A stretch of 64,000 nt of DNA from assembly GCF_009363615.1 (NCBI RefSeq), contig NZ_CP045384.1:804501-868500 (forward strand), written 5' to 3'. The position numbers and the translations under genes were made by a program. Numbering within the stretch: position 1 is the stretch's first letter; every line of letters begins with the position of its first letter. Below, piece after piece: positions 42,302 to 55,614 of this stretch. Origin of the DNA: Ruegeria sp. THAF33. GTDB lineage: Bacteria > Pseudomonadota > Alphaproteobacteria > Rhodobacterales > Rhodobacteraceae. Below the pieces are notes generated by a model. The model was not told where the DNA came from and did not search any database. It saw only the letters and a program-made list of their open reading frames with translations.

Positions 42302-43113
42302 GCCATCGAGAACTGGACGACATGCTGGGAAAAGGCTGGCGTAAGCCTGCCTTTGTCAAGAACCCAGTGCTCCGCTGGGCATTGCTCCTTGGATTTTTCG
42401 CCTACCTGATCGCAGCTTTTATGACCATCGAGGTCGATTGGGGTCGTGTCTATGAAGGGCTGGATCGCGGCTGGGCGTTTGTGCTTGCGTTCACCAGCCC
42501 AGACTTCATTTCACGGTGGTCAGATATTTGGAGCGGCCTTCTGGAAAGTATCGTGATGACCGTGGCCGCGTCGGTCGTGGGCATCCTGATATCGATCCCG
42601 ATCGGGCTGGGGGCTGCACGCAATATCGCGCCGTTGCCAATCTACATGATTTGCCGAGGCATTGTTGCGATAAGCCGGGCATTGCAAGAGATCATCGTTG
42701 CCATATTGCTTGTGGCGATCTTCGGCTTTGGCCCGTTGGCCGGATTTCTGACGCTTTCCTTCGCCACCATAGGGTTTCTTTCGAAACTTCTGGCCGAAGA
42801 TATCGAAGCCATGGACAAGGTTCAGGCAGAGGCGATCAAGGCCTCTGGAGCGCGTTGGCCACAATGGATCAACTATGGAGTTCAGCCGCAAGTGATGCCG
42901 CGACTTGTGGGCCTTTCCATGTATCGGATCGACATCAACTTCCGGGAAAGCGCGATCCTCGGGCTTGTGGGGGCTGGTGGAATTGGTGCGACTTTGAACA
43001 CCGCATTCGACCGCTATGAATACGACACCGCGGCGGCCATTCTCATTCTGATCATCGGCATCGTGATGGCTCTGGAATACCTTTCGGGAATTATTCGAGC
43101 GAGGGTTCAGTAA
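42298..43113 (+). CDS. phnE: PhnE-type permease, first copy
   Basis: A 271-residue permease with about six helices. A cytoplasmic N-terminal segment is followed by a first helix (about 24-44), and the family's signature [24 protein letters not shown] and the EAA-loop [18 protein letters not shown], ending in [16 protein letters not shown]. It overlaps phnC by four bases and phnE-2 by one (TAATG). PhnE proteins usually act as a heterodimer when there are two genes, as here. Confidence 0.91.
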
Positions 43114-43928
43114 TGCCGATACTTGAACGCGACGATGCGCAAATCTGGCGTCGCCGGACAACAGGTCAGAGCTTGGTTCGTTGGTTCGGCTGGCTGTTGG
43201 GCGTGGCGATCTTTGTTTACTGCTGGCAGTTGATCTCGGCATCGACCACTTGGTTCTTCGTCTGGGACGCGCCCCGCATCGCCAATGATATCTGGACCCG
43301 GGCAACGCCCCCCAAATGGGAGTACATCACCCAACTGGGCCGCCCGATTTGGGACACTCTGAACATTGCCACCCTGGGAACAATCATCGCCCTATGCATG
43401 GCAGTGCCCGTCGCCTTTTTGGCGGCCCGCAACACCACGCCATCGGCTTTGTTCATACGGCCGATTGCCCTGTTGGTCATTGTCTCGACTCGCTCTATCA
43501 ACTCGTTGATCTGGGCGCTTCTTCTGATCGCGATTATTGGTCCCGGAGTGTTCGCCGGTGTCATAGCAATCGCCATTCGTTCAATCGGGTTTTGCGCAAA
43601 GCTTCTTTACGAAGCGATTGAGGAGATTGATCACACGCAGGTCGAAGCAATAACGGCAACCGGTGCTTCACGCTGGCAGGTCATGGCTTATGGGATCGTA
43701 CCGCAAATCCTGCCCGCGTTTGCAGGCATTGCCGTTTTTCGATGGGATATCAACATCCGCGAATCCACGGTGCTCGGGCTGGTTGGTGCTGGTGGCATTG
43801 GGTTGCAATTGTCGGCTTCGCTCAACGTTCTGGCTTGGCCACAAGTCAGCCTGATCCTGATTGTCATTCTCGTCGCGGTTATGATCAGCGAATGGGTTTC
43901 GGCGAAAGTACGAGGGGCCATCATTTGA
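43113..43928 (+). CDS. phnE: PhnE-type permease, second copy
   Basis: A 271-residue paralogue of the preceding permease, with the same layout: helix at about 24-46, then the signature INSLIWALLLIAIIGPGVFAG, the EAA-loop EAITATGASRWQVMAYGIVP, and the [19 protein letters not shown] end. The two permeases share the [13 protein letters not shown] motif. Its stop overlaps the TTG start of the HAD gene by four bases (TTGA). Confidence 0.9.
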   Translation: MPILERDDAQIWRRRTTGQSLVRWFGWLLGVAIFVYCWQLISASTTWFFVWDAPRIANDIWTRATPPKWEYITQLGRPIWDTLNIATLGTIIALCMAVPVAFLAARNTTPSALFIRPIALLVIVSTRSINSLIWALLLIAIIGPGVFAGVIAIAIRSIGFCAKLLYEAIEEIDHTQVEAITATGASRWQVMAYGIVPQILPAFAGIAVFRWDINIRESTVLGLVGAGGIGLQLSASLNVLAWPQVSLILIVILVAVMISEWVSAKVRGAII

Positions 43929-44830
43929 CCGGTTTCTCTGTGCAAGAAGCTTTTGACGCCTACGAGGCTGTGCGACATCGCCTGCCGCAAACCAGATCAA
44001 CTGAATTGAACTATCGCCAGGCGGACACGCTGGAGGACATAGCTCATGAGTTTGACGTGTTCCTCCTCGATGCTTTCGGGGTTCTCAATATTGGCGATAC
44101 GGCAATCCCGGATACGCCAGATCGGGTCAGGTCGCTGACAGCCGCCGGCAAACGTGTTCTGGTCGTGTCGAATGCCGCCGGGTTTCCCCACGCAACTCTT
44201 ATGGAGAAGTACAACAGGCTTGGTTACGATTTCGCACCACAAGACGTGATCACCAGCCGGGCCACATTGTTGTCTGAGCTGAACGGCCAAAGTGATTTGC
44301 ATTGGGGATTGATGGCGGCCCCCAGTGCCGGCCTTCGCGATCTGGAGGGGCTGAAACTGTCCTATCTGGAGGATGACCCGAAGCCCTACGAAACCGTCGA
44401 CGGGTTCTTGTTGATCGGGTCAGCGGTTTGGACTGAAGCGCGACAAGCCATGTTGGAGGCCACTTTGCAAGAGCGTCCCCGCCCGGTATTGGTCGGCAAC
44501 CCTGACATTGTCGCTCCGCGCGAGTACGGTTTTTCCAAGGAACCCGGTCTTTACGCGCACCGGCTGGCAGACCGGACAGGCGTCGCCCCTCAGTTCTTTG
44601 GAAAGCCTTTCGCCAATATCTATGATCTTGCTTTCCAATGTCTCGGGCACATCGACAAGTCTCGGGTTCTGATGGTGGGCGACAGCCTGCACACCGACAT
44701 ACTGGGCGCACGAGAAGCAGGCATAGCTTCCGCCCTCATCTCGGGATACGGTTTCTTCGCAGGACATGACGTTGAAGCAGCGATCATAAAGGCAGGGATA
44801 GTCCCTAACTTTGTCGTAAGCCGGCCTTGA
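43925..44830 (+). CDS. HAD-superfamily class IIA hydrolase (TIGR01459-like)
   Basis: A 301-residue HAD protein of the NagD-like IIA group. The nucleophile Asp49 is in FLLDAFGVL, but the acid/base Asp two residues on is replaced by Phe (D-A-F instead of D-x-D), as in the TIGR01459 group where that place is often aromatic. Motif II Ser/Thr (VVSNAAGFP) and motif IV GDSLHTDILGA are present. A TTG start at 43925 is inferred because it overlaps the permease stop (TTGA) and is preceded by GAGGGG. Position after the transporter suggests that it dephosphorylates or binds the imported compound. Confidence 0.82.
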   Translation: MTGFSVQEAFDAYEAVRHRLPQTRSTELNYRQADTLEDIAHEFDVFLLDAFGVLNIGDTAIPDTPDRVRSLTAAGKRVLVVSNAAGFPHATLMEKYNRLGYDFAPQDVITSRATLLSELNGQSDLHWGLMAAPSAGLRDLEGLKLSYLEDDPKPYETVDGFLLIGSAVWTEARQAMLEATLQERPRPVLVGNPDIVAPREYGFSKEPGLYAHRLADRTGVAPQFFGKPFANIYDLAFQCLGHIDKSRVLMVGDSLHTDILGAREAGIASALISGYGFFAGHDVEAAIIKAGIVPNFVVSRP

Positions 44831-45187
44831 TTCCAGGGCGTTACCCTTAGATGCGTTTTCCTGTTAACGCTTACTCGTATGTCGGCTGACTCCGCGTGGC
44901 AAACATGCCGACCATATACATGCAATGCCACGTGTGAGCGGCGGCTTTGGAAAACTCCTCCGCAACCACAGAACTCTGAACTCATGTCTGGATTGGACTG
45001 TTATCACACATCCCAACAAACTGACGTATCGGCCGCTTTGACCGCAATTCGCAGCATATCTCAATCAGGTTCACGGCCTCAGTCCACAGCGGGTTTCAGA
45101 AACCGTGTACTTTTTCCATTAGCTTTTTATGGGTTCTTTCGGGACCGTTCACAAGTCGCCGTCTATCTCATCGAATCAAGTCCCTGA
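44831..45187. other. Non-coding stretch after the HAD gene
   Basis: About 360 bp without a supported gene. Short open frames (for example 44879-45187 on the plus strand) have no ribosome site and no motif. It probably includes decayed sequence from the element represented by the integrase remnant to its right. Confidence 0.45.
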
Positions 45188-45590
45188 ACCGGTGTACTGC
45201 GCGCACCGTCGCCGCGCAGCCGTTTCTTGAACCGATCAAACGCGATGAACGCCATGTCCTCAAATGTCGGGTCGTTCGGGTTGTTTTCTGCATCAAGACG
45301 CCGGAGCTCAAGTTCCGCAATCGGATCGTCGTCGCGTTCCGTATTAGAGGACCATTTTTTCGTTCTGTGCGCGCATCAAACAGGGACATGTCAGGGAAAG
45401 ATCCAATCCCCCATCCTGGCGCTTGCCGTTGTCTTAGAACCGATAGAACCAGCGACTGCCGTTCTGCGACTTCTTGAGAAAGAGCCCGCCACCGTATTGA
45501 ACAACGATACAAAGCGCGGCACTTATTACCTGCGCTGCTGATAGTCGGTTTACGTCTCTTGCTTTAACTGCCCCACACTTGCGGCGCGGT
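45188..45590 (-). pseudogene. Decayed P4-type tyrosine integrase, N-terminal part
   Basis: Read on the minus strand in three successive frames, the region resembles the arm-binding domain of P4-type integrases (DUF4102). The first frame gives KARDVNRLSAAQV, then GGGLFLKKSQNGSRWFYRF followed by a stop and DNGKRQD. A second frame gives GSFPDMSLFDARTERKNG, and a third gives DPTFEDMAFIAFDRFKKRLR. This order and the GGGL-F, YRF, G-S-P-SL-DAR landmarks match intact integrases. One in-frame stop and two frameshifts, plus loss of the catalytic C-terminal half, make it non-functional. It lies about 110 bp from the repeated tRNA end. Confidence 0.72.
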
Positions 45591-45697
45591 GCTTTCCCAA
45601 ATTCTGTTGCAGTGTCCTGCAGGTGACGGACTAATTTAATAGTAATATTAATGTTTTAGGGTCTATACGCTGCATGTTGTACAAGCCGCATCGTGCT

Positions 45698-45715
45698 CAC
45701 CGCCCGTACCAAAAA
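45698..45715 (+). other. Putative right attachment site (attR)
   Basis: CACCGCCCGTACCAAAAA, an almost exact copy (17/18) of the tRNA-Leu 3' end at 32801-32818, in the same orientation. Only the last part of the acceptor arm and CCA are copied; no T-arm is present, so it is not a tRNA. It lies just beyond the integrase remnant. Confidence 0.6.
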
Positions 45716-45804
45716 GAATAAGAAAAATGCCGTGACTTATGTGTGCGTGGCAGGACGCACGGGAGCTGCAAAGCCCCCCATAATACTCTGCTGTGCAACT
45801 ATGC

Positions 45805-46323
45805 TTAAACCGGAAACCCCAATTGTCGGATCAGTTTCCAAATGTCCCTGTTCGCGGCTGACAGCTGATCAACGACTGCTTCGATCTGGAGCAGCGCGTT
45901 GTCGTCCACGGTATCTTCGCGGCCCAGTTTTATGTCGGTTTTGCGGTCAGCGATCCGCATAAGGATCGTTTTCGGGTTTCCGCTTTCAGGGTCGAAGGAA
46001 TAGATGCAATGGTTGTACTTGTTGCGGATGCCAGAAAGCTTGGCCAGCCTTTGCGTATGTTCAAGGATCGGATCTCGGAGCTGGGCAGGGCGCCCTTCCA
46101 TTTTTGCAAGTCTTTCAACCAGATCTATTCGCGCGCGGGTGGTGTTCAAAGTCAAAAAGATGATTACGGCCACGTCCTTGGACGTTCCAGTCAGGCCGGC
46201 GATCAGGTGGATCAGCAGGCTTTCGGTATTTGTCCACATATAGTTCAGCCTGCCGACCAAAAGGATCAGGCGGTCGAACCGGGCTTCGAACGGATCAGTC
46301 AAGGGCGGTCTGCTGCGCCTCAT
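45805..46323 (-). CDS. Hypothetical helical protein paired with a LuxR regulator
   Basis: A 172-residue soluble, largely helical protein that I do not recognise by name. Notable parts are FDRLILLVGRLNYMWTNTES, FLTLNTTRARIDLVERLAKM and GIRNKYNHCIYSFDPES; the RNKYNHC-like motif in a helical bundle recalls HEPN-type folds, but a catalytic RxxxxH is not clear. The ATG at 46323 has GAGG nine bases upstream and overlaps the LuxR gene by 29 bases; a TTG at 46302 would also fit. It is coupled to the LuxR gene and may modulate it. Confidence 0.62.
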   Translation of the reverse strand: MRRSRPPLTDPFEARFDRLILLVGRLNYMWTNTESLLIHLIAGLTGTSKDVAVIIFLTLNTTRARIDLVERLAKMEGRPAQLRDPILEHTQRLAKLSGIRNKYNHCIYSFDPESGNPKTILMRIADRKTDIKLGREDTVDDNALLQIEAVVDQLSAANRDIWKLIRQLGFPV

Positions 46324-47047
46324 GAGGCGCAACCTCGAAATAGAAATGAGCAGCCGCAGTCCTGTTGCTGACGCCGATCTTTCCGACAACGTTATGCATG
46401 TGCAGCTTGACCGTGTGTTCCGTGATGCCCAGCTTGGCCGCAATCAATTTGTTGCTTTTGCCTTCTGAGACCAGTTGCAAAACCTGTTTTTCGCGGCGTG
46501 TCAGCTTGGAGTATTGTGCATGCCGATCCGCGCCGTTGGATGTAATGGCTTCCCGTTGCCGTGGTCTTTCAGGCGCGCGCTGACAGGGGGATGAGACACA
46601 GTCAGCCAGGAAGCTGGGAAGATACAGTTCCTCGTGCATCAGCAATCTGAGGATGGCGCGCCACGCATCCGGTGCCACGTTCATCGGTAGAAAGCCGACA
46701 TCTCCAAACTGCGCGCGGTTCCAGCCTTCGAACAGGTGCCGGGCCGATTCCTCTTTGCGATAGGCGAAGGCAAGACAGCCGGAACCTGCACTTTTGGAGT
46801 ATGCATCGGGGCGCGCCAACAGGTCTTCGATCAACATTTGATCCACGACGACGATCTTGCCGCTGTCCGGAACACTTGTACGCATCGCCTCGAGTGTTTC
46901 GAAGCGAAAAGCGCGGACACCAAATTCGGTTTGAACGCTTCTTAGGGTTTGATTTGAATAGAATAGTTCTTTCCCGAGGAAGACAATCGAAAAATCTTCT
47001 GAATAAAGACTCTGATTGCCAGATTCATTGTTCAAAGACTCACTCAT
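46295..47047 (-). CDS. LuxR/CsgD-like transcriptional regulator
   Basis: A 250-residue regulator. The C-terminal LuxR helix-turn-helix (about 178-240: LTRREKQVLQLVSEGKSNK and AAKLGITEHTVKLHMHNV) is complete. The N-terminal part (about 18-130) looks like a receiver-type fold without the phospho-acceptor context (VVVDQMLIEDLL in its place), as in CsgD and VpsT, which control biofilm matrix. It is divergent from the 760-residue protein gene, with 600 bp between them, and is the obvious candidate for its control. A GAGGGA site precedes the ATG. It carries an 18-bp perfect palindrome (46314-46331) near its 3' end. Confidence 0.85.
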   Translation of the reverse strand: MSESLNNESGNQSLYSEDFSIVFLGKELFYSNQTLRSVQTEFGVRAFRFETLEAMRTSVPDSGKIVVVDQMLIEDLLARPDAYSKSAGSGCLAFAYRKEESARHLFEGWNRAQFGDVGFLPMNVAPDAWRAILRLLMHEELYLPSFLADCVSSPCQRAPERPRQREAITSNGADRHAQYSKLTRREKQVLQLVSEGKSNKLIAAKLGITEHTVKLHMHNVVGKIGVSNRTAAAHFYFEVAPHEAQQTALD

Positions 47048-47647
47048 TATATTCCCTCACAAAACGGGGTTAACCGGAAATGGCTTTATCGAAATGGAAT
47101 TGCCGGTGTAAAAGTAGTTAACTAATCAAAGAATTACGTAAGATTTATTGTAGCTGAAAACGTGATTTTCTACAACCAGACGGTATAGTTCAAGTGCCCG
47201 AGATATAGAACTATTGTTTAGGTTTTCCGACTTGTCATTGTGTAACTGGCGGAAACAATTGCATTATTTTTTGTTGCTTTTCTTGTTTAGAACTTTTTGA
47301 TCCAGGCCGGGAATAGTTTCACGGTTTTTAAAAATAAACATAAAATACAATAACTTATCCATATCAGAACTTTCAGTTAGCTAGTCGCAAGCGTGCGTCG
47401 CTGCAAACATGGACAGGCTTTAATTTTGAAAGCGTCTGTCCCTGCCGCGCCCGTTCCTTGCGTATTTCAGCATCGATTGTGAACGGCCGCGAATTCGGCT
47501 TAGCCGGGAAAGGAGGTGGCCTCAGGAAAACAATCGTTGACCGCATTCAGCGTGCTTGAACGCTGTGCGGGTATTTCAGTTTCAATCACGCCCGTTGCCG
47601 CTTTGTAGATGAATGGCGGTCAGGCGTTCCAGTAATGGGAATTTGTT
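47048..47647. promoter_or_regulatory. Long divergent leader region between the LuxR gene and the acidic protein gene
   Basis: A 600-bp gap without an open frame. The left half is AT-rich. A hairpin lies at 47411-47441 (arms GGACAG+GCTTT and AAAGC+CTGTCC, with a GT bulge), about 210 bp before the acidic protein start, and an AAAGGAGG sequence occurs at about 47508 with no following start. It probably holds the promoters, LuxR sites and a long 5' leader. Confidence 0.5.
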
Positions 47648-49930
47648 ATGAGACGTAATGTAAACAATACAAACGTAACGACCGTTGACGAAATTGTAGT
47701 CGAAAACCTCGAAGCTCCGGTGGATGTTGAAATTCAGGTTGATGAGGCCCTTGTCGAAGCCGACGTGACTGCGCAGCAACAGCAGCAGGACCAAAATGTA
47801 GAAAACGCCAACGAGCAAGGCCAGGATCAGGGTCAGGACCAGGGTCAGGATCAAGACCAGGGTCAGGATCAGGACCAGGGTCAGGATCAGGACCAGGGTC
47901 AGGATCAGGACCAGACGCTTAATGCCGGCGACAACACCAACGACAACTCCAACAGCAACTCAATCAACATCGATTTTGGCGGCGGTGAGTGGATTCCGCG
48001 CGACGATGATCAGGTTGATCTGGACCTCGGCGACTCGGCGACAGTGGGTGACGTGATCACTGCTGGTCGCGATCTGACCTATGATCCAGGCGATGACATG
48101 AATCTGGATGTCTCGATGGATGGTGCCGGAACAGCGATGTCATCCGTGAACAGCCAGGTCGCCAGTCTGAGTGATGATGACACGTTGGACTCACCAAGCG
48201 TATCCAACAATGCCGACTTCTACCAGAACGGTGATGCCAATGGTGGTACTGCTACTGCGGCTGAAGGTATCAGCTCGGATGCCGGCGGTGGAAAATCGGG
48301 CGACGGTGGAACCAGTTACGGCGGCGCGGCCGATTCATCGACGCTGGGCAGCCACGCGTGGGCTGACGGCGGCGATACCGGCAGTGCCGATGCCGATTCC
48401 AGCGGCGGCCGGGGCGGATCGACCGGTGACGCAAGCAATGCCAGCAACGGTGTTGGTATGGCGGGCGCAGGATCCGACGGTGACAGTGCCGGAGGAGATG
48501 GCGGTGCCGCGGATGGTTCCGCGTCATCTGACAACGATGGCAGCACAAGTGCCGATGGCAGCGGAACCGGCGGAGCCGGCGGCAGCGCGGATTCGTTTGG
48601 TCTGGGCCTGGGCCTGGGTCTGTCCGGTTCGAATGCATCCGGTAACGCAAACGGCGGCGACAGCGACTCCGACTCGACCGGAACGGGTACCGGAACGGCA
48701 GATAACGCCGCGGACGCGTCCGGCGCAGACGGTGGCGACGGTAATGCTGCGGCAGATGGTTCGGCTTCGAACACCAGCGACAGCAACACCGATGCAAATG
48801 ATGCCACTGCGGGTGACAACACTGCGGATGGCTCTGCTGACAGCGGCGCGGACAGTTCGGCTGACGGCTCTGGCGGAACCGGAACCGGTGGTGACGGATC
48901 CGGCGGTGACGGCTCTGGCGGTGACGGCACCGGTGGCGACGGCACCGGCGGCGACGGCGAAGGTGGATTCGGCGCGATGGTCGAAGCTGCAATCATGGCT
49001 CTTCAGGAAGAGTTGGGCATGATTGACGCCGAAGCAGGCGAAGGCGGCGACGGAACCGGCGGTGACGGCACCGGTGGCGACGGCACGGCCGGCGACGGTT
49101 CGGGTGGCGACGGCTCGGGCGGCGACGGTTCGGGTGGGACCGCTGACGCGGATTCCGATGCTCAGGGTGTTGGCGATCAGTCGGCAAGCGGGCCGGACAT
49201 CGACCAGAGCCCAGGCGACGTGAACGGTGCGGCCAGCAACTCGCAGGACACCGACGGCAGCGGCGGTGACGGCGGGTCGAACGCAGCAGATGGCGCAGCA
49301 GATGCGGCCGGTACCGGAACATCGGCTGCCGACGGCGACGGCGGCGCGGGCGGCAGCACGACGCCGACATCATCATCTACCGGCAACGGAGCCGGGTCTG
49401 CCGACGCGGCCAATACCGCGGGTGGCGGCGGAGCTGCCGACATCTTCGGAGATGCCGACACAAACGGTGCGGCTGACAGCCTGGCCGAAGCAATTGCCGG
49501 ATACGGTGGCGAAGGCAGTTCCGACAATGATGCCACATCGACTGGCTCTGGCGATGCAGCTGGTGCGGCCGACTCGGGTAACGGTGGTGCCGGTGGCGCA
49601 TCCGCCGCGGACGGCGGAACCAGCGGGGCTTCGATGGGCACTGCAACGTCAGGCGATACCATGGGTGGCATGATCACCGGTGGTAACGGTGGCGGCGCCT
49701 ATTCAGGTGACGGTGGTGCCGGCGGCAATGGTGGTGCCTGGGGCGCGAACAATGGTGGCGATGGTATCGTAACCGGCGAGTCCTATGCATCGGCTGCGGC
49801 TGTCGTTGATACGTCTGCGTTCAACCAGTCGATCATCATGGGCGCCAACGTTCTGGGCAACACGGTCGATACGACCATGGTGGGTGGTTCGATGACCATG
49901 TCCCACGCCAGCGACGACACTGACGTTTAA
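47648..49930 (+). CDS. Large acidic low-complexity Gly/Asp/Ser/Ala-rich protein, predicted type I secretion substrate
   Basis: A 760-residue protein with no recognised domain. Residues 1-45 form an acidic amphipathic start; 57-89 is a Gln/Asp/Gly tract; 100-200 is Asn/Asp-rich; 200 to about 715 is dominated by Gly, Asp, Ser, Ala and Thr, with tandem GGDGS/GGDGT pentads near 415-440 and 465-495. A lone helix (GAMVEAAIMALQEELGMID, about 441-459) interrupts the tract. The end (NQSIIMGANVLGNTVDTTMV) resembles a repeat of the next protein. It has no Cys, one Lys, a handful of Arg and no signal peptide, all usual in type I substrates. No RTX nonapeptide is present. The transporter genes are 2 kb downstream. 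Confidence 0.75.
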   Translation: MRRNVNNTNVTTVDEIVVENLEAPVDVEIQVDEALVEADVTAQQQQQDQNVENANEQGQDQGQDQGQDQDQGQDQDQGQDQDQGQDQDQTLNAGDNTNDNSNSNSINIDFGGGEWIPRDDDQVDLDLGDSATVGDVITAGRDLTYDPGDDMNLDVSMDGAGTAMSSVNSQVASLSDDDTLDSPSVSNNADFYQNGDANGGTATAAEGISSDAGGGKSGDGGTSYGGAADSSTLGSHAWADGGDTGSADADSSGGRGGSTGDASNASNGVGMAGAGSDGDSAGGDGGAADGSASSDNDGSTSADGSGTGGAGGSADSFGLGLGLGLSGSNASGNANGGDSDSDSTGTGTGTADNAADASGADGGDGNAAADGSASNTSDSNTDANDATAGDNTADGSADSGADSSADGSGGTGTGGDGSGGDGSGGDGTGGDGTGGDGEGGFGAMVEAAIMALQEELGMIDAEAGEGGDGTGGDGTGGDGTAGDGSGGDGSGGDGSGGTADADSDAQGVGDQSASGPDIDQSPGDVNGAASNSQDTDGSGGDGGSNAADGAADAAGTGTSAADGDGGAGGSTTPTSSSTGNGAGSADAANTAGGGGAADIFGDADTNGAADSLAEAIAGYGGEGSSDNDATSTGSGDAAGAADSGNGGAGGASAADGGTSGASMGTATSGDTMGGMITGGNGGGAYSGDGGAGGNGGAWGANNGGDGIVTGESYASAAAVVDTSAFNQSIIMGANVLGNTVDTTMVGGSMTMSHASDDTDV
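47817..47914 (+). repeat. 18-bp tandem repeat coding for Gln-Asp-Gly
   Basis: Four copies of an 18-bp unit (GGTCAGGATCAGGACCAG) at 47843-47914, the first with one change, preceded by shorter degenerate copies from 47817. It codes for GQDQDQ repeats in the acidic protein. The in-frame unit means slippage would change the protein length without breaking it. Confidence 0.85.
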
Positions 49931-49978
49931 GTCAAAAGGCGGGGCTCGCATTTTCGGGCCTTGCTACCTTTCAAAAAT

Positions 49979-50005
49979 GCCGGGGCCGCAAAACGCGGCC
50001 CCGGC
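49979..50005 (+). terminator. Strong hairpin between the acidic protein and the repeat protein genes
   Basis: An 11-bp perfect stem, GCCGGGGCCGC / GCGGCCCCGGC, with loop AAAAC, 49 bp after the acidic protein stop. No T-run follows. It could stabilise the upstream message and thin out read-through, giving much more of the first protein than of the downstream transporter. Confidence 0.65.
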
Positions 50006-50061
50006 CCAACTGAACCCAAAGCGGTAATTACGAGCCGCCGCGGGCAAAAAGGATAACCGAC

Positions 50062-52002
50062 ATGGCACTTGACGGTATTACGGAAACGATAGCGCATTTT
50101 GTTGGAACTTTTGAGCTTACGATAGAACAAGCCCGCCTGCGGGATCAGTACGAGGAGTTCAGCGCCCTGAGGCGGAAAGCTGAAATAGACGGGCTTGACG
50201 AGCCAACCTCGATCAACATCAAAGCTGATCTGGATGTCCCGGCGGGCGAATACAAAGCCCTGCCGTTCAACTTTCTTCCCTCTCAGCCGGAGCTGCCGTT
50301 GCCAAAAGCTCCTGTCGGGCCGGTGCACGAGGCGGTCATCATCCTCAACGGTGACAGCGCGGAGTCCGCGCGATTTGTTCCAGACAGCATATCCGGCCCG
50401 TCTTCCGCACCTGAACTGATCATTCTTCGACCGGATACGGTGCCATTGGGGTCGGCAATGACGTTCACCGTGCAAAAGGTGGTCATGCGCGACAACGACA
50501 CGGTGGGGGAAGGGGACTTTCGTGATACCGAGGCGCTGATCGCCCAAGGCGAAGAGATGCTGGACATGGCGCTGTCGCTTCATGCCGTGGCAGCCCCTTC
50601 GCTTTCGCTCGCGGATTACAAGTCGACCGAAATGCTCGAGGCGCTGGCCCAACAGATGACGGCCCCGGCAAACGCGAATATCGACGGGGTCACGGTACAT
50701 CAGTTTCATGGCGATGATGCGTTGGGGGTGATCGTGAACGGCAAGTACGTTGACGACGCTCCGGTATGGACAGACATCCTGCCTGCGTTCCATCAACCGG
50801 AGGAAGCCGGAGAGGATGAGGCCGAGTCCATGCTTCCGGCCGAGTGGGAACAGTCGAAAGATCCTGACTTTGATGACGGACACCTGGTCGTGACCGGAGG
50901 AAACCTTGCGATCAATGCCGTTTCGGCATCTGTGGGTTGGGTTGATGCCCCCTATATCGCCGTCGGAGGACAGGCGATCAGCCTGACCGCCATCAGCCAG
51001 GTTGCGCTTGTTTCAGATTGGGATGTGGGGGCGCCGGGAACGGGCAGCGGCACCAACGTGATTCAGTCCTCGAAGATTGAAGTCGAAGGCCGAGATGCCC
51101 CCTGGCTGGACAATGGCGCCGGAACAACCGGACAACCTGAGTTCATTGTTGTGGATTGGGTCCACGGTGATCTGGTTGTGGCAAACTTCGTCAAACAAGT
51201 TATCGACGGCACGGATATCGACAACATACAGACCGAGATTTCGGCCGCATCGACATTGTACGCGTTGGGCGACAACGAAATGTTCAATGTCACCGACATC
51301 GTGCAGCTGGGCAGTTTTTACGACCTGATCATGATCGACGGGAATATGATTTCCGTGGACATGTTGTACCAGACCAACGTCCTGATGGATGACGATATCA
51401 TCAGCGGCGGTATGCCCGGCGCAATGGCCGGAGATGATGACAACGTGATCATGAATGACGCGTCGGTCAAAACGATAGGCGAAGATACACATCAGGGTCT
51501 GCAACAGAACCTGTCTGACGCCATGGCGCTTGATCAAACGGACATGGATGCGTTGGAGAACGCGCTGCTCAACGATCCCCTGTTCGCAGGGATGGAACAG
51601 ATGCGCGTGCTCAAGATCGACGGAGACTTGTTGCAGGTGAACATCGTTGAACAGGTCACCATGATGCTGGATCAGGATCAAATTGACCTGTCCGGTCCCA
51701 GTGCCGCCGATACCGAGGTCGTCGCAGGCAGCAACGCCCTGTTGAACTCCGTCAATCTGACCAAAATGGGCGTGGATTCGACGATAATGGCCGCTGACGG
51801 ATCTTACTCCGACCTGCTGCTTCATCAGGCCAGCCTGATCGACGTGCCAGACAACCAGGAAATCACAGATATGACCAACGAGGCGATCGCCGCAATCATG
51901 GCGGACATGTCTGTGCCGCAACCGGATGCGGCCCTGGCACTGCACGCACAATCCACTGACACAACGACACCAGATGACGGCCTGCAATCCATGCTGGCCT
52001 GA
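50062..52002 (+). CDS. Large acidic protein with internal repeats, next to type I secretion genes
   Basis: A 646-residue protein with no family I can name. An N-terminal region (1-280) of mixed structure is followed by four related repeats of 45-60 residues (about 298-343, 362-417, 420-475, 514-571) and a partial fifth (580-595). Each has a hydrophobic strand with I-D/G-G-, then a Gln, then an Asp-rich loop such as DDDII, DTDID or DQDQI, and ends with an Asn-rich strand (NVIMN, NALLN). There is no Cys and no signal peptide. AAAGGA precedes the ATG. It lies between the Gly-rich protein and the transporter and may be a second secreted protein or a partner in export. Confidence 0.72.
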   Translation: MALDGITETIAHFVGTFELTIEQARLRDQYEEFSALRRKAEIDGLDEPTSINIKADLDVPAGEYKALPFNFLPSQPELPLPKAPVGPVHEAVIILNGDSAESARFVPDSISGPSSAPELIILRPDTVPLGSAMTFTVQKVVMRDNDTVGEGDFRDTEALIAQGEEMLDMALSLHAVAAPSLSLADYKSTEMLEALAQQMTAPANANIDGVTVHQFHGDDALGVIVNGKYVDDAPVWTDILPAFHQPEEAGEDEAESMLPAEWEQSKDPDFDDGHLVVTGGNLAINAVSASVGWVDAPYIAVGGQAISLTAISQVALVSDWDVGAPGTGSGTNVIQSSKIEVEGRDAPWLDNGAGTTGQPEFIVVDWVHGDLVVANFVKQVIDGTDIDNIQTEISAASTLYALGDNEMFNVTDIVQLGSFYDLIMIDGNMISVDMLYQTNVLMDDDIISGGMPGAMAGDDDNVIMNDASVKTIGEDTHQGLQQNLSDAMALDQTDMDALENALLNDPLFAGMEQMRVLKIDGDLLQVNIVEQVTMMLDQDQIDLSGPSAADTEVVAGSNALLNSVNLTKMGVDSTIMAADGSYSDLLLHQASLIDVPDNQEITDMTNEAIAAIMADMSVPQPDAALALHAQSTDTTTPDDGLQSMLA

Positions 52003-52042
52003 CCCCCCCCAAGTTTTTATCGAGTGACCAGAAGGTTTGTAT

Positions 52043-54259
52043 ATGTCGATTGTTTTTTCGTCGCGCCGTCCACTCTTATCCAGTCCCCTGGACAGGCAGG
52101 GCGGTTTGGGCCCGAAGCGCCAGCGCGCAGACGGTGGGACAGATCCAGCGACACAACGGGTCAAAGCCCGTTTGCACCTGACGCAGGAGATGCGCGTGTC
52201 TGAGTCAGATCCAGATTCGACAGTTGAAAGCGAAGCGCCACAGCAATCCGAAGACCAAAAACACTCACGCGAACAACGGCGCGCTGATCCTCCCCATCAG
52301 CGTGCGCAGCCGCAACCCGCGCAAGATGAAGACCCGGCGGGTGGCGGCAATGGGGTGGCCGATGCCGACGGCCCGGATCCGGCATCCGCCGGGGACTCGA
52401 CTGCGCGCAAGACCCCCTCTGCACGCGCATCCGGTGAGAACGGCATAGGCACCACGATCGAGGCCAAGGCAAACCAGCCACTGTTGCAAACGAATTCCGG
52501 CGGCGGTGATGGGAACGGGCCACCCCAAACCTTCCACAAACGCACCCCGCCCGAAGACTTCCAGCGCACGTTGCGCGTTTCGATGCGGGCGATCCGGCGC
52601 AATCTTGCGTTTGTTCTGGTCCTGACCTGCGCCACCAACATCCTGATTCTGGCGATCCCGATCTATCTGTTCCAGATCAGTGACCGGGTTCTGACCAGCC
52701 GGTCGCTGGATACGCTGATCATGCTGACGGCCATCGTTGCAGGGGCGGTGATCTTCCAGTCTGCCTTTGATGCGGTGCGGCGGTTCATGCTCATGCGGAC
52801 CGGGGTCGAAGTGGCGGCCCGGCTGGGCGCACCGGTTCTGAGCGCGGCGGCCCATGCGTCGCTGCATGGAAACGGGCGCGAGTATCAGACATTGGGCGAT
52901 CTGCAACAGCTTCGTGGTTTTCTGGTCTCGGGCACGCTGCTTTCATTTCTGGACGTGCCGTTTGCACCGCTGTTCATTCTGATGATCTTCCTGGTGCATC
53001 CGCAACTGGGCATGATCGTGGTGGTTACTGCGTTGATTCTTATGACGATTGCACTGATCAACCAGAAAACGACTGCCAAGCCGTTTGCCGAGGCCAACAA
53101 GGCACAGTCCATGGCGAACCTGCATCTGGATTCGATGTCTCGCAACAGTCAGATCATTAATGCTCTGGCAATGATACCCGAGGCCGTGCGGATCTGGGGG
53201 CGGGATACTGCCCAATCCCTGACTTGGCAGGTGCGGGCGCAGGACCGCAACGTGATCTTCGCTGCAATCTCGCGCGCCGTTCGCCTTTTGACGCAGATCG
53301 GAATTCTGGGTTGGGGCGCGTTTCTGGCGCTGCAAGGAGAGATCACAGGCGGTATGGTGATTGCGGCCTCGATCATTGCCGGGCGTGCCTTTGCGCCGAT
53401 TGAAGGTTCGATTGAAGGATGGAACAGCTATCTGCTGACGCGCGGAGCCTACGGCCGGATCAAGGCGCTGCTGTCGACCTCGGCCCTACAATACGAAAAA
53501 CTGCGCTTGCCACGGCCCGAAGGTCGTCTGGATGTCGAACGTCTGCTTTATGTACCGGGCGGAACCAAACGCGTGGTTCTGAACGGCATCACGTTCTCGC
53601 TGGTTCCAGGTGAAACTTTGGCCATCATCGGCAATTCGGGTGCCGGGAAAACCACGCTTGGGAAGACTCTGGTGGGATCCATTCTGCCCACATCGGGCAG
53701 CGTCAGGCTTGACCTGATGGACATCCGAAACTGGGACCCGCGCCAGTTTGGCGAAAGCATCGGCTACCTGCCGCAGGATGTTCAGCTGTTCCCGGGCACG
53801 ATCAAGGACAATATCGGCCGGATGCGGGCGGATGCCACTGACGAACAGATCCACGATGCCGCCGTTCTGGCCGATGTTCATAACATGATTGCAACATTGC
53901 CGCAGGGATATGAAACCGTGGTGGCCGCTGATGGTTCGCCTTTGTCCGGTGGTCAGAAGCAGCGTATCGCACTGGCACGGGCGTTCTTCGGCAACCCCAG
54001 AATGGTTGTGCTGGATGAACCGAATTCAAATCTCGACGTCGCGGGCGACAAGGCGCTGGCATGTGCAATCGAACAGGCGCGGCAAAGCAAGATCACCGTT
54101 GTCGTCATTACGCAGAAGCCAACGTTGTTGAATGTTGTCGACAAGATCATGCTGCTGACGGACGGGCGTGTGGCCCTGTTCGGTCAGCGTGATCAGGTTC
54201 TTCAGCAGATCAACGGGCCGCGCAAGCAGACTGGAATTGAAGGCCAGCAGGGGGGCTGA
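52043..54259 (+). CDS. Type I secretion ATPase/permease with long N-terminal extension
   Basis: A 738-residue ABC exporter of the PrtD/HlyB type. Residues 1 to about 180 are an unusual hydrophilic extension rich in Pro, Gln, Asp, Ser and Gly, with no C39 peptidase or CLD motif. The transmembrane domain (about 190-480) has six helices, and the nucleotide-binding domain has Walker A GNSGAGKTT (530-538), signature LSGGQKQRIALARAF and Walker B MVVLDEPNSNLD. ATG 52043 follows GAAGG; an internal ATG at residue 50 is possible but the extension would remain. The HlyD partner follows after two bases. TolC is not in the window. Confidence 0.9.
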   Translation: MSIVFSSRRPLLSSPLDRQGGLGPKRQRADGGTDPATQRVKARLHLTQEMRVSESDPDSTVESEAPQQSEDQKHSREQRRADPPHQRAQPQPAQDEDPAGGGNGVADADGPDPASAGDSTARKTPSARASGENGIGTTIEAKANQPLLQTNSGGGDGNGPPQTFHKRTPPEDFQRTLRVSMRAIRRNLAFVLVLTCATNILILAIPIYLFQISDRVLTSRSLDTLIMLTAIVAGAVIFQSAFDAVRRFMLMRTGVEVAARLGAPVLSAAAHASLHGNGREYQTLGDLQQLRGFLVSGTLLSFLDVPFAPLFILMIFLVHPQLGMIVVVTALILMTIALINQKTTAKPFAEANKAQSMANLHLDSMSRNSQIINALAMIPEAVRIWGRDTAQSLTWQVRAQDRNVIFAAISRAVRLLTQIGILGWGAFLALQGEITGGMVIAASIIAGRAFAPIEGSIEGWNSYLLTRGAYGRIKALLSTSALQYEKLRLPRPEGRLDVERLLYVPGGTKRVVLNGITFSLVPGETLAIIGNSGAGKTTLGKTLVGSILPTSGSVRLDLMDIRNWDPRQFGESIGYLPQDVQLFPGTIKDNIGRMRADATDEQIHDAAVLADVHNMIATLPQGYETVVAADGSPLSGGQKQRIALARAFFGNPRMVVLDEPNSNLDVAGDKALACAIEQARQSKITVVVITQKPTLLNVVDKIMLLTDGRVALFGQRDQVLQQINGPRKQTGIEGQQGG

Positions 54260-54261
54260 CC

Positions 54262-55614
54262 ATGAATGACCTCGTACCTGTGAACAACTCAGCCAATGAA
54301 CCAGAAGTCTGGTATGCCGAGGTTCCGCGCTCGATCAACAGGTTGATAGTGATCGGGGTGGTCTTGCTTGTCGTTTGCTTCGGTGGTTTCGGGGTCTGGT
54401 CCTTCAGCGCCCCGCTGGCCGCAGCGGTCATCGCGCAAGGCAGCTTTGTGGCCACGGGCCGCAACAAAATTGTCCAACATCTTGAAGGCGGCATCATCGA
54501 AGACATCAAGGTTGTGGAAGGTCAGGCGGTTCAGGCAGGTCAAGTGTTGATGACCCTGGACCAGACCTCGGCCCAAGCCAATGAGCGTGAATTGCATATT
54601 CGCAAGTTGCGCCTTCAGGCCATGACCGAGCGGTTGCTGGCCGAGTACGGGGAACGCGACCGCCTCGTGTTTTCGCAGGCGCTTGTCGAAGCATCCGAAG
54701 ATCCTGAAATAATGGCCATTCTGGATGGTCAAAAGCTCAGCTTTGATGTGTCGCGCAAGACGCTGCTGAATGACTTGGCTTTGCTGGAGCGCAATATGGA
54801 AGCGCTGAAAATCCGATCCAGCGGATTTGAGGCGCAACTGGACAGCATGGCCCGGCGCGCCGAGATATTGCAGGAGGAATTTGAGGCCAAAAGCCAACTG
54901 TTCGAAAAGGGCCTTGTCCGCAAAGGGGAGTTGAACACGATCCGTCGTGTGCAAGCCGAAGCCGAAGGTCAGCAGGCCCGGTTGCAGGCGGAAGCCGCTG
55001 AAATCAACCAGATGCTGCTGAAATATGACGAACAGATCGCGCGTACGCGGTCCGCCTATCGTGAGGCCGCACTGGATGAACTGGGCGTGATCGAAGCCGA
55101 TCTGGAAAGCGTGCGTGAAAAATCCCGACAGGCGCGCAGCGTTCTTGACCGAGCCGTTGTACGCGCGCCGGTAACCGGAACGGTGGTGCGATTGCATTAT
55201 CACACGCCGGGCGGTGTGATTGAGACCGGGGAACCGATAGCCGAAATCCTGCCCGCAGATGCGCCCCTGATCATCGAGGCACAGATTCCGCGTACCGAGA
55301 TTGACAGTGTCGTCACGGGGCAGACCGCCACAGTCCGCCTGATCGCGTTGAACCAACGCACGACGCCTGTTTTGTATGGCGAGGTTTTCTATATCTCGGC
55401 CGATGCGCTGCTTGAGGATTCGACCGGTGTTCCGCAGGAAGTCTATCTGGCACGAGTCTCACTGACCCCGGATGAGTTGCAGCGCGTGCGCGGCTTTGTT
55501 CCGACACCGGGGATGCCCGCAGAAATCATGATCCAGACCGAGGAGCGCACCTTTGCGGCCTATATCGCCAAACCGGTATCAGACAGCATGTCGCGCGCGT
55601 TTCGCGAGCAGTAA
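54262..55614 (+). CDS. HlyD-family membrane fusion (adaptor) protein
   Basis: A 450-residue type I secretion adaptor. A short cytoplasmic N-terminus is followed by one transmembrane helix (about 30-50), a lipoyl-type half-motif (GRNKIVQHLEGGIIEDI, ending in VVEGQAVQAGQVL), long alpha-helical hairpins (about 100-290) and the C-terminal beta-barrel with the APVTGTVVRLHYHTPGGVI motif. It spans the periplasm to link the ATPase with a TolC-type channel. It lies two bases after the ATPase gene. The usual TolC gene is missing, so a general one must serve. Confidence 0.93.
   Translation: MNDLVPVNNSANEPEVWYAEVPRSINRLIVIGVVLLVVCFGGFGVWSFSAPLAAAVIAQGSFVATGRNKIVQHLEGGIIEDIKVVEGQAVQAGQVLMTLDQTSAQANERELHIRKLRLQAMTERLLAEYGERDRLVFSQALVEASEDPEIMAILDGQKLSFDVSRKTLLNDLALLERNMEALKIRSSGFEAQLDSMARRAEILQEEFEAKSQLFEKGLVRKGELNTIRRVQAEAEGQQARLQAEAAEINQMLLKYDEQIARTRSAYREAALDELGVIEADLESVREKSRQARSVLDRAVVRAPVTGTVVRLHYHTPGGVIETGEPIAEILPADAPLIIEAQIPRTEIDSVVTGQTATVRLIALNQRTTPVLYGEVFYISADALLEDSTGVPQEVYLARVSLTPDELQRVRGFVPTPGMPAEIMIQTEERTFAAYIAKPVSDSMSRAFREQ

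Follow-up and report, generated by a model that had tools for sequence, protein, structure and literature searches.

Large cargoes of type I secretion systems are usually regarded as RTX proteins. The locus described here, from Ruegeria sp. THAF33, encodes a type I exporter next to two large acidic proteins, called GD and rep below. It lies in a window of 64,000 nucleotides (contig NZ_CP045384.1, positions 804,501 to 868,500 of the forward strand), and coordinates given below are positions in this window. With moderate confidence, its six genes can be read as a dedicated non-RTX type I module that exports abundant, matrix-like GD plus its partner rep, with control by an RNA leader and by hairpins.

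The closest precedent for the module is the BapA/BapBCD system. In the available part of the report on it (PMC5588039), BapA of Paracoccus denitrificans is an acidic Asp-Ala protein required for biofilm, and its gene lies beside its own type I genes. Like GD, it is a large, acidic, low-complexity protein of an alphaproteobacterium, with a gene directly upstream of type I exporter genes; the divergent N- and C-termini that flank its repeats are counted as a further likeness. The bodies of the two proteins, compared by composition, differ: that of BapA consists of 891 Asp-Ala repeats, whereas GD is 24% Gly. The BapA cluster also has an outer-membrane gene, whereas the GD module has none in the cluster. 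No mention of a second repeat protein, a LuxR pair or an RNA leader was found in that part of the report.

Another related group is formed by the PrtD/HasD-type exporters without a C39-like domain. This class carries the non-RTX cargo HasA, according to the available part of PMC8277102. The ATP-binding cassette (ABC) protein of the window resembles the group in scoring above the cut-off of the model TIGR01842. It differs in an extra N-terminal stretch, and the candidate cargoes have no Pfam or NCBIfam family.

RTX proteins are similar to GD in being Gly/Asp-rich, acidic and Cys-poor and in being encoded beside type I genes. In an exoproteome of R. pomeroyi, as far as the available part of the report goes (PMC2953401), the three proteins detected most often are of the RTX type and lie outside this module. 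An RTX cargo was rejected for the module itself: the strict motif GG-x-G-[ND]-D-x-hydrophobic occurs in 0 of 63 GD and 0 of 143 rep proteins, and no RTX family matches. A loose form of the motif is found once in nine of the 63 GD proteins and never twice.

In curli, csgD is divergent from csgBA, and a partner protein is encoded beside the major one. The module is similar by analogy, with a LuxR-type regulator divergent from the operon of the putative secreted proteins and a long intergenic leader. Unlike curli, which uses CsgG, it has a type I exporter. Curli was rejected as an identification, with no curlin or other Pfam family in GD or rep and the CsgD model far under its cut-off.

The gene module

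The module comprises the following features.

45805 to 46302 (TTG start) or 46323 (ATG start), minus strand: partner gene, 165 or 172 aa, with an RN-x3-H motif; overlaps the LuxR gene
46295 to 47047, minus strand: LuxR-family regulator with a GerE helix-turn-helix (HTH) and an N-terminal part without an assigned family; divergent from the cargo operon
47417 to 47643, plus strand: structured leader RNA of GD; consensus of six helices and 32 pairs
47589 to 47628, plus strand: 3' leader hairpin, stem CCGC / GCGG, loop TTTGTAGATGAATG; shortly before the GD start, conserved across genera
47648 to 49930, plus strand: GD gene, 760 aa, Gly/Asp/Ala/Ser-rich; candidate major exported cargo
49703 to 49927, plus strand: C-terminal GD domain, conserved, GESYASAAAVVDTSAFNQSIIMGANVLGNTVDTTMVGG...DDTDV; candidate signal for secretion, assembly or both
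49931 to 50061, plus strand: GD-rep intergenic region with three predicted hairpins
50062 to 52002, plus strand: rep gene, 646 aa, five units; candidate second cargo, nucleator, anchor or carrier
52037 to 54259, plus strand: PrtD-type type I ABC exporter gene, TIGR01842; start codon uncertain
54262 to 55614, plus strand: HlyD-type periplasmic adaptor gene, TIGR01843; begins two bases past the ABC stop

An earlier, sequence-only reading of this stretch had given the gene positions, a 600-bp leader (the gap between the LuxR and GD starts), a Cys-free Gly/Asp-rich GD of 760 residues, a rep of 646 residues and ABC and HlyD genes two bases apart, and all of these agree with the present analysis. 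On comparison of the sequences, four features are new relative to that reading: the C-terminal domain of GD, the Q-x5-D-x-D units of rep, the covarying leader RNA and the strong hairpins between GD and rep.

Conservation of the module

The six genes (RN-x3-H partner, LuxR, GD, rep, ABC and HlyD) are a real conserved module, neither chance nor artefact. Within the genus, 31 of the 37 genomes searched, including its own, carry rep; it was found in none of 24 genomes that represent the other families of the class. All 30 other loci of the genus preserve the order partner-LuxR-GD-rep-ABC-HlyD, with a split rep in one.

Within the Rhodobacteraceae, a rep profile matched 34 of 394 genomes (33 of 393 genera), and a separate search with a profile of the GD C-terminus matched the identical 34. 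Across the class, both profiles match the same two of 385 genomes, namely the own genome and G613, which belongs to another family. Apart from the own genome, 32 of the 34 family genomes with rep were mapped (G103 was left out). Partner, LuxR, GD and rep are present in all 32 of these other-genus loci and ABC plus HlyD in 30; the two loci without them both terminate at a contig end.

A second set of loci was drawn from the best 80 of 194 relatives plus G613. The GD C-terminal hmmsearch of this set was run with filters and the null2 correction off, as the default filters missed known copies. All six genes occur in 71 of the 81 loci, 41 of these being new to the first set. Eight of the ten incomplete loci stop at contig ends where the absent genes would fall.

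The 62 genus and family loci, added to the 81 of the second set (49 new), give a total of 143 loci. Because the two collections sample some identical genomes, 32 of the 81 repeat the first set, and 111 of the rep sequences in the total are distinct. Counts over 142, 143, 139 or 137 loci contain such duplicates.

The earlier reading had proposed a dedicated exporter whose substrate is Gly/Asp-rich and not RTX. The conserved neighbourhood of the exporter genes, with such a protein as candidate cargo, is supported. That reading had named homologues away from the exporter genes as the finding that would speak against this. ABC and HlyD are absent beside rep in only four of the 143 loci (L093, L098, L162 and L173), all four at contig ends.

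Named hosts among the matches listed include Roseovarius, Litoreibacter, Octadecabacter, Paracoccus, Phaeobacter, Sulfitobacter and Mesorhizobium prunaredense, the last of which is placed in the Hyphomicrobiales. The module is widely kept in the Roseobacter group and other alphaproteobacteria, and it contains two non-RTX candidate cargoes outside curated families and a leader RNA absent from Rfam.

The GD protein

GD has 760 residues with no Cys, 24% Gly, 15% Asp, a single Lys and an isoelectric point (pI) of 4.05. Its net acidic charge is about 0.15 per residue, with very few Lys or Arg. Of the 460 nucleotide differences from the copy in locus L034, to which the protein is 86% identical, 342 are in third codon positions. 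This bias argues that GD is a real gene, translated and under selection. GD is Cys-free in 136 of 142 loci, with a median pI of 4.05, and its length ranges from 343 to 1632 aa across the family loci. No Pfam or NCBIfam family matches GD, rep or the partner of this locus.

The body of GD is Gly/Asp/Gln-rich, of low complexity and variable, while the C-terminus is nearly fixed. An alignment of the window copy with 39 of the 63 GD C-termini (40 sequences) defines a domain of about 75 residues with the pattern AFNQSIVMGANVLGNSVD.T.VGG and 13 invariant columns. This domain is likely to be the recognition signal for export. A database search with the GD C-terminus gave a single match, an AAA-domain protein; the own GD was not listed, which is presumably a filter effect.

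Two tandem GD genes precede rep in L104 and L199 (Rhodobacteraceae bacterium Alg231_04). Two also precede it in G613 (L206, 8996-11002); these copies have only 282-286 aa, and the long Gly/Asp body is missing from them.

The rep protein

The sequence-only reading had seen GD as the substrate of the exporter. GD stands as candidate cargo, and the proposal is extended by rep, a second, always paired component that is equally acidic. The protein has 646 residues, no Cys, a pI of 4.05 and five units, each of which ends in Q-x5-D-x-D (Q at residues 138, 313, 379, 437 and 531). This motif occurs on average 4.76 times per rep over the 143 loci, against 0.24 in shuffles. It is found at least three times in every locus and in 111 of 111 distinct copies. 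A second motif, [GSD]-x-N-x3-N, occurs four times in this rep and on average 3.5 times per protein, against 0.32 in shuffles.

Like GD, rep has a median pI of 4.05, and it is Cys-free in 123 of the 143 loci. For contrast, only 9 of 139 ABC proteins are Cys-free, and their pI is 9.67. Among 40 relatives of rep, only isolated weak Pfam matches were seen. NCBI names rep "type I secretion protein". The system had been called undescribed, and no functional description was found in the open-access literature.

In Ruegeria sp. ANG-R (L054 and L144), rep is divided between two open frames, which in L054 have 272 and 524 aa; this is either a broken gene or an assembly error.

The exporter and the outer-membrane channel

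With 691.7 bits against a curated cut-off of 510.15, TIGR01842 identifies the ABC protein as a PrtD-type type I exporter. The HlyD adaptor reaches 364.8 bits with TIGR01843 (curated cut-off 208.65). An exporter of LssB or HlyB type was rejected, the models reaching 363 of 693 and 263 of 726 bits respectively, both under cut-off. The best match among solved structures is 5l22, and the next best homologue in the own genome is 35% identical.

A channel of the TolC type is encoded in trans in the own genome (G000:C1:935309; 253.7 bits, cut-off 225.15).

The N-terminus of the ABC protein carries a low-complexity Gly/Pro/acidic stretch of about 180 aa (52037-52585) before the membrane domain, which can be aligned in most loci of the genus. 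A second ABC exporter homologue, 29% identical, lies at G000:C2:649027, with a TolC-like gene (C2:647405) about 0.5 kb before it.

The leader RNA

On the evidence of the alignments, the GD leader is a conserved, covarying structured RNA, and its last hairpin keeps a position shortly before the GD start across many genera. The structure was derived from the window leader and 25 of the 30 others; L031, L036, L051, L052 and L060 were excluded as near-duplicates or divergent. In these 26 Ruegeria leaders, 95.4% of cells pair, compared with 30.7-48.4% with slid partners, a percentage biased upward because the structure comes from the same alignment. The stronger point is that both sides have changed at 18 of 32 pairs, against a mean of 8.6 in shuffles.

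The full leader model finds one copy in the own genome. Among the other-genus loci it gives one full-length match with E <0.001 (L090), the others being weaker or partial. Rfam has no match above cut-off in 44800-52100, and in the leader only two weak minus-strand matches below it. The leader RNA (47417-47643) could merit study in its own right.

The 3' hairpin is conserved more broadly. A strict pattern of it is found in 28 of 31 leaders (not in L052, L059 or L060) and in none of the 32 other-genus loci. A hairpin model, which has a single strong copy in the own genome, was searched against 90 of 113 loci (L090-L121 and L126-L206). It matches directly upstream of GD in 63 of them (58 of 81 distinct). 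The search gave 83 rows, of which 70 were tabulated (63 upstream, 7 elsewhere); 13 weak rows with E above 4 were left out, and one of these, L157, also seems to lie upstream of GD. At E 0.01 or better there are 46 matches upstream of GD, against one elsewhere. By locus id, 36 of the 46 are outside the training set; when five from the same genomes as training rows are subtracted, 31 come from genomes outside training. In 46 of the 63 loci, the next in-frame start follows the hairpin match by 19-27 nt.

For covariation, 34 copies were hand-picked from 53 upstream matches that are non-training by id, although four of the 34 share genomes with training rows. In these copies, 98.0% of cells pair. 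All six pairs show changes on both sides, as they do in 14 of 500 shuffles, and the covariation score is equalled by no shuffle. The leader RNA may control GD.

Hairpins between GD and rep

The gap between GD and rep contains three predicted hairpins, two with 11-bp stems, and no terminator-like T tract on the plus strand. In the window it folds better than shuffles (z -4.16). A stem of at least 8 bp is present in 131 of 139 loci, judged against simple shuffles and not against other gaps. An example of such hairpins is the puf mRNA of Rhodobacter, in which, according to the available parts of PMC7509114 and PMC6238624, they influence cleavage and segment stability. By analogy, a puf-like effect at this gap might make GD abundant over the exporter.

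The regulator pair

The regulator is of the LuxR family (PF00196, E 3.4e-20). It had been described as LuxR/CsgD-like, of which the LuxR-type HTH stands; CsgD itself was rejected, since model NF007505 gives 50.8 bits against a cut-off of 250 and the likeness is confined to the HTH.

The RN-x3-H motif of the partner, RNKYNH in the window copy, is present in 137 of 137 copies. It is a motif that we take to be typical of HEPN proteins, and the partner fits the HEPN pattern R-x4-6-H, which makes it HEPN-like by motif only. Among 29 members there are weak scattered matches and no consistent match in Pfam, PADLOC or the PDB; one of the 29 matches Csx1 (E 0.0019). Many HEPN proteins act on RNA. With a structured leader present in the module, RNA binding by the partner is an attractive guess and no more.

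Proposed mechanism

We infer export of GD and rep, their stoichiometry, a matrix role, Ca2+ binding and regulation from these observations. The process would start with the divergent LuxR regulator switching the operon on. The structured leader would provide a further level of control, over the translation of GD or the stability of the mRNA, and the hairpins downstream of GD would favour the production of many GD molecules per exporter. The PrtD-type ABC protein, the HlyD adaptor and an outer-membrane channel encoded elsewhere would then export GD and rep. During this step the low-complexity body of GD would remain unfolded and its conserved C-terminal domain would be recognised.

Outside the cell, GD would form an abundant, length-variable material such as a matrix, gel or fibre. 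As the scarcer partner, rep would nucleate, anchor or cross-link GD, and its D-x-D sites might bind Ca2+. If GD is indeed an exported matrix, it would be an unstudied surface material in these bacteria. In that case the domain of about 75 residues and the 40-nt hairpin would also provide short, specific handles on the recognition and dosing of non-RTX substrates.

Several points weigh against this proposal. Export and localisation of GD and rep are predictions, and the NCBI name of rep is annotation only. The absence of a signal peptide from GD was judged by eye only, and no outer-membrane component was found within the cluster. The module is dispensable, since rep is missing from six of the 37 genomes searched in the genus, its own among them. 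Nor does the regulator pair always have the divergent arrangement: in L181 and L185 the two genes follow HlyD, and in L201, a second-set locus that is cut upstream, the partner lies downstream, after HlyD. No LuxR gene was recognised in L201 or in L206 of G613.

A common origin of the GD C-terminus with the units of rep was rejected, as a profile-profile comparison was not significant (probability 1.9%, E 0.025). The GD C-terminus resembles a single rep unit, with weak statistical support. A hidden Markov model of the former scores at least 5 bits in 25 of 143 rep proteins, compared with 1 of 715 shuffled sequences and 2 of 143 reversed ones, which is only a hint since the rep copies are themselves relatives. 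Finally, rep could be an exporter accessory instead of cargo.

Alternative explanations

This last explanation is somewhat unlikely. In it, GD is the sole cargo and rep an accessory of the exporter, for instance a GD-binding retention plug, or a chaperone in the cytoplasm or periplasm. The more ordinary composition of rep, its regular units, its strongly conserved N-terminus and the location of its gene between GD and the exporter in the mapped loci are consistent with such a role. However, rep is as acidic as GD and nearly as Cys-poor, and its length of about 640 to 1250 aa among intact copies would be unusual for a chaperone.

A more elaborate model, considered unlikely, is a two-protein extracellular polymer. 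Here GD would be the polymer, rep its nucleator or anchor, and G-x-N-x3-N an assembly motif shared by both. Production would be gated by a new class of RNA leader that the HEPN-like partner binds or cuts.

It is doubtful that GD is a secreted polyelectrolyte without assembled structure, such as a Ca2+ or metal buffer or a hydration layer of the cell surface, with rep as its surface anchor. The acidic charge and scarce Lys and Arg of GD would suit this function, as would the five D-x-D sites of rep and the marine habitat of many host genera. A nearly fixed C-terminal domain suggests that more than charge is involved.

The leader might also act as DNA, with operator palindromes for LuxR. It lies in the divergent region beside the LuxR gene, and hairpins are palindromes. 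The idea is improbable, however. G-U pairs are conserved on the plus strand (GU in 24 of 26 leaders, UG in 25 of 26), which indicates that the sense strand carries the structure; on the opposite strand they would be C-A mismatches. Moreover, an asymmetric loop is conserved and the position is fixed relative to the GD start codon.

Bacteriocins and toxins are also among the substrates of type I exporters. Least probable is an antagonism system, with GD or rep not as matrix but as an antibacterial or other effector that leaves by the type I route: the phenotype of a type I mutant of R. pomeroyi (tolC, a gene outside this module) is read as a cost of toxin export in the available part of PMC10041152, but GD, rep and partner show no consistent toxin, enzyme or immunity family, the GD body is of low complexity with large length changes, and no immunity gene was recognised among the six conserved genes.

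Neighbouring genes

Outside the module, the window contains a frame at 43113-43928 that is presumably a membrane permease resembling a phosphonate-type transporter. It is followed, at about 43742-44830, by a frame that we take to be HAD-like.

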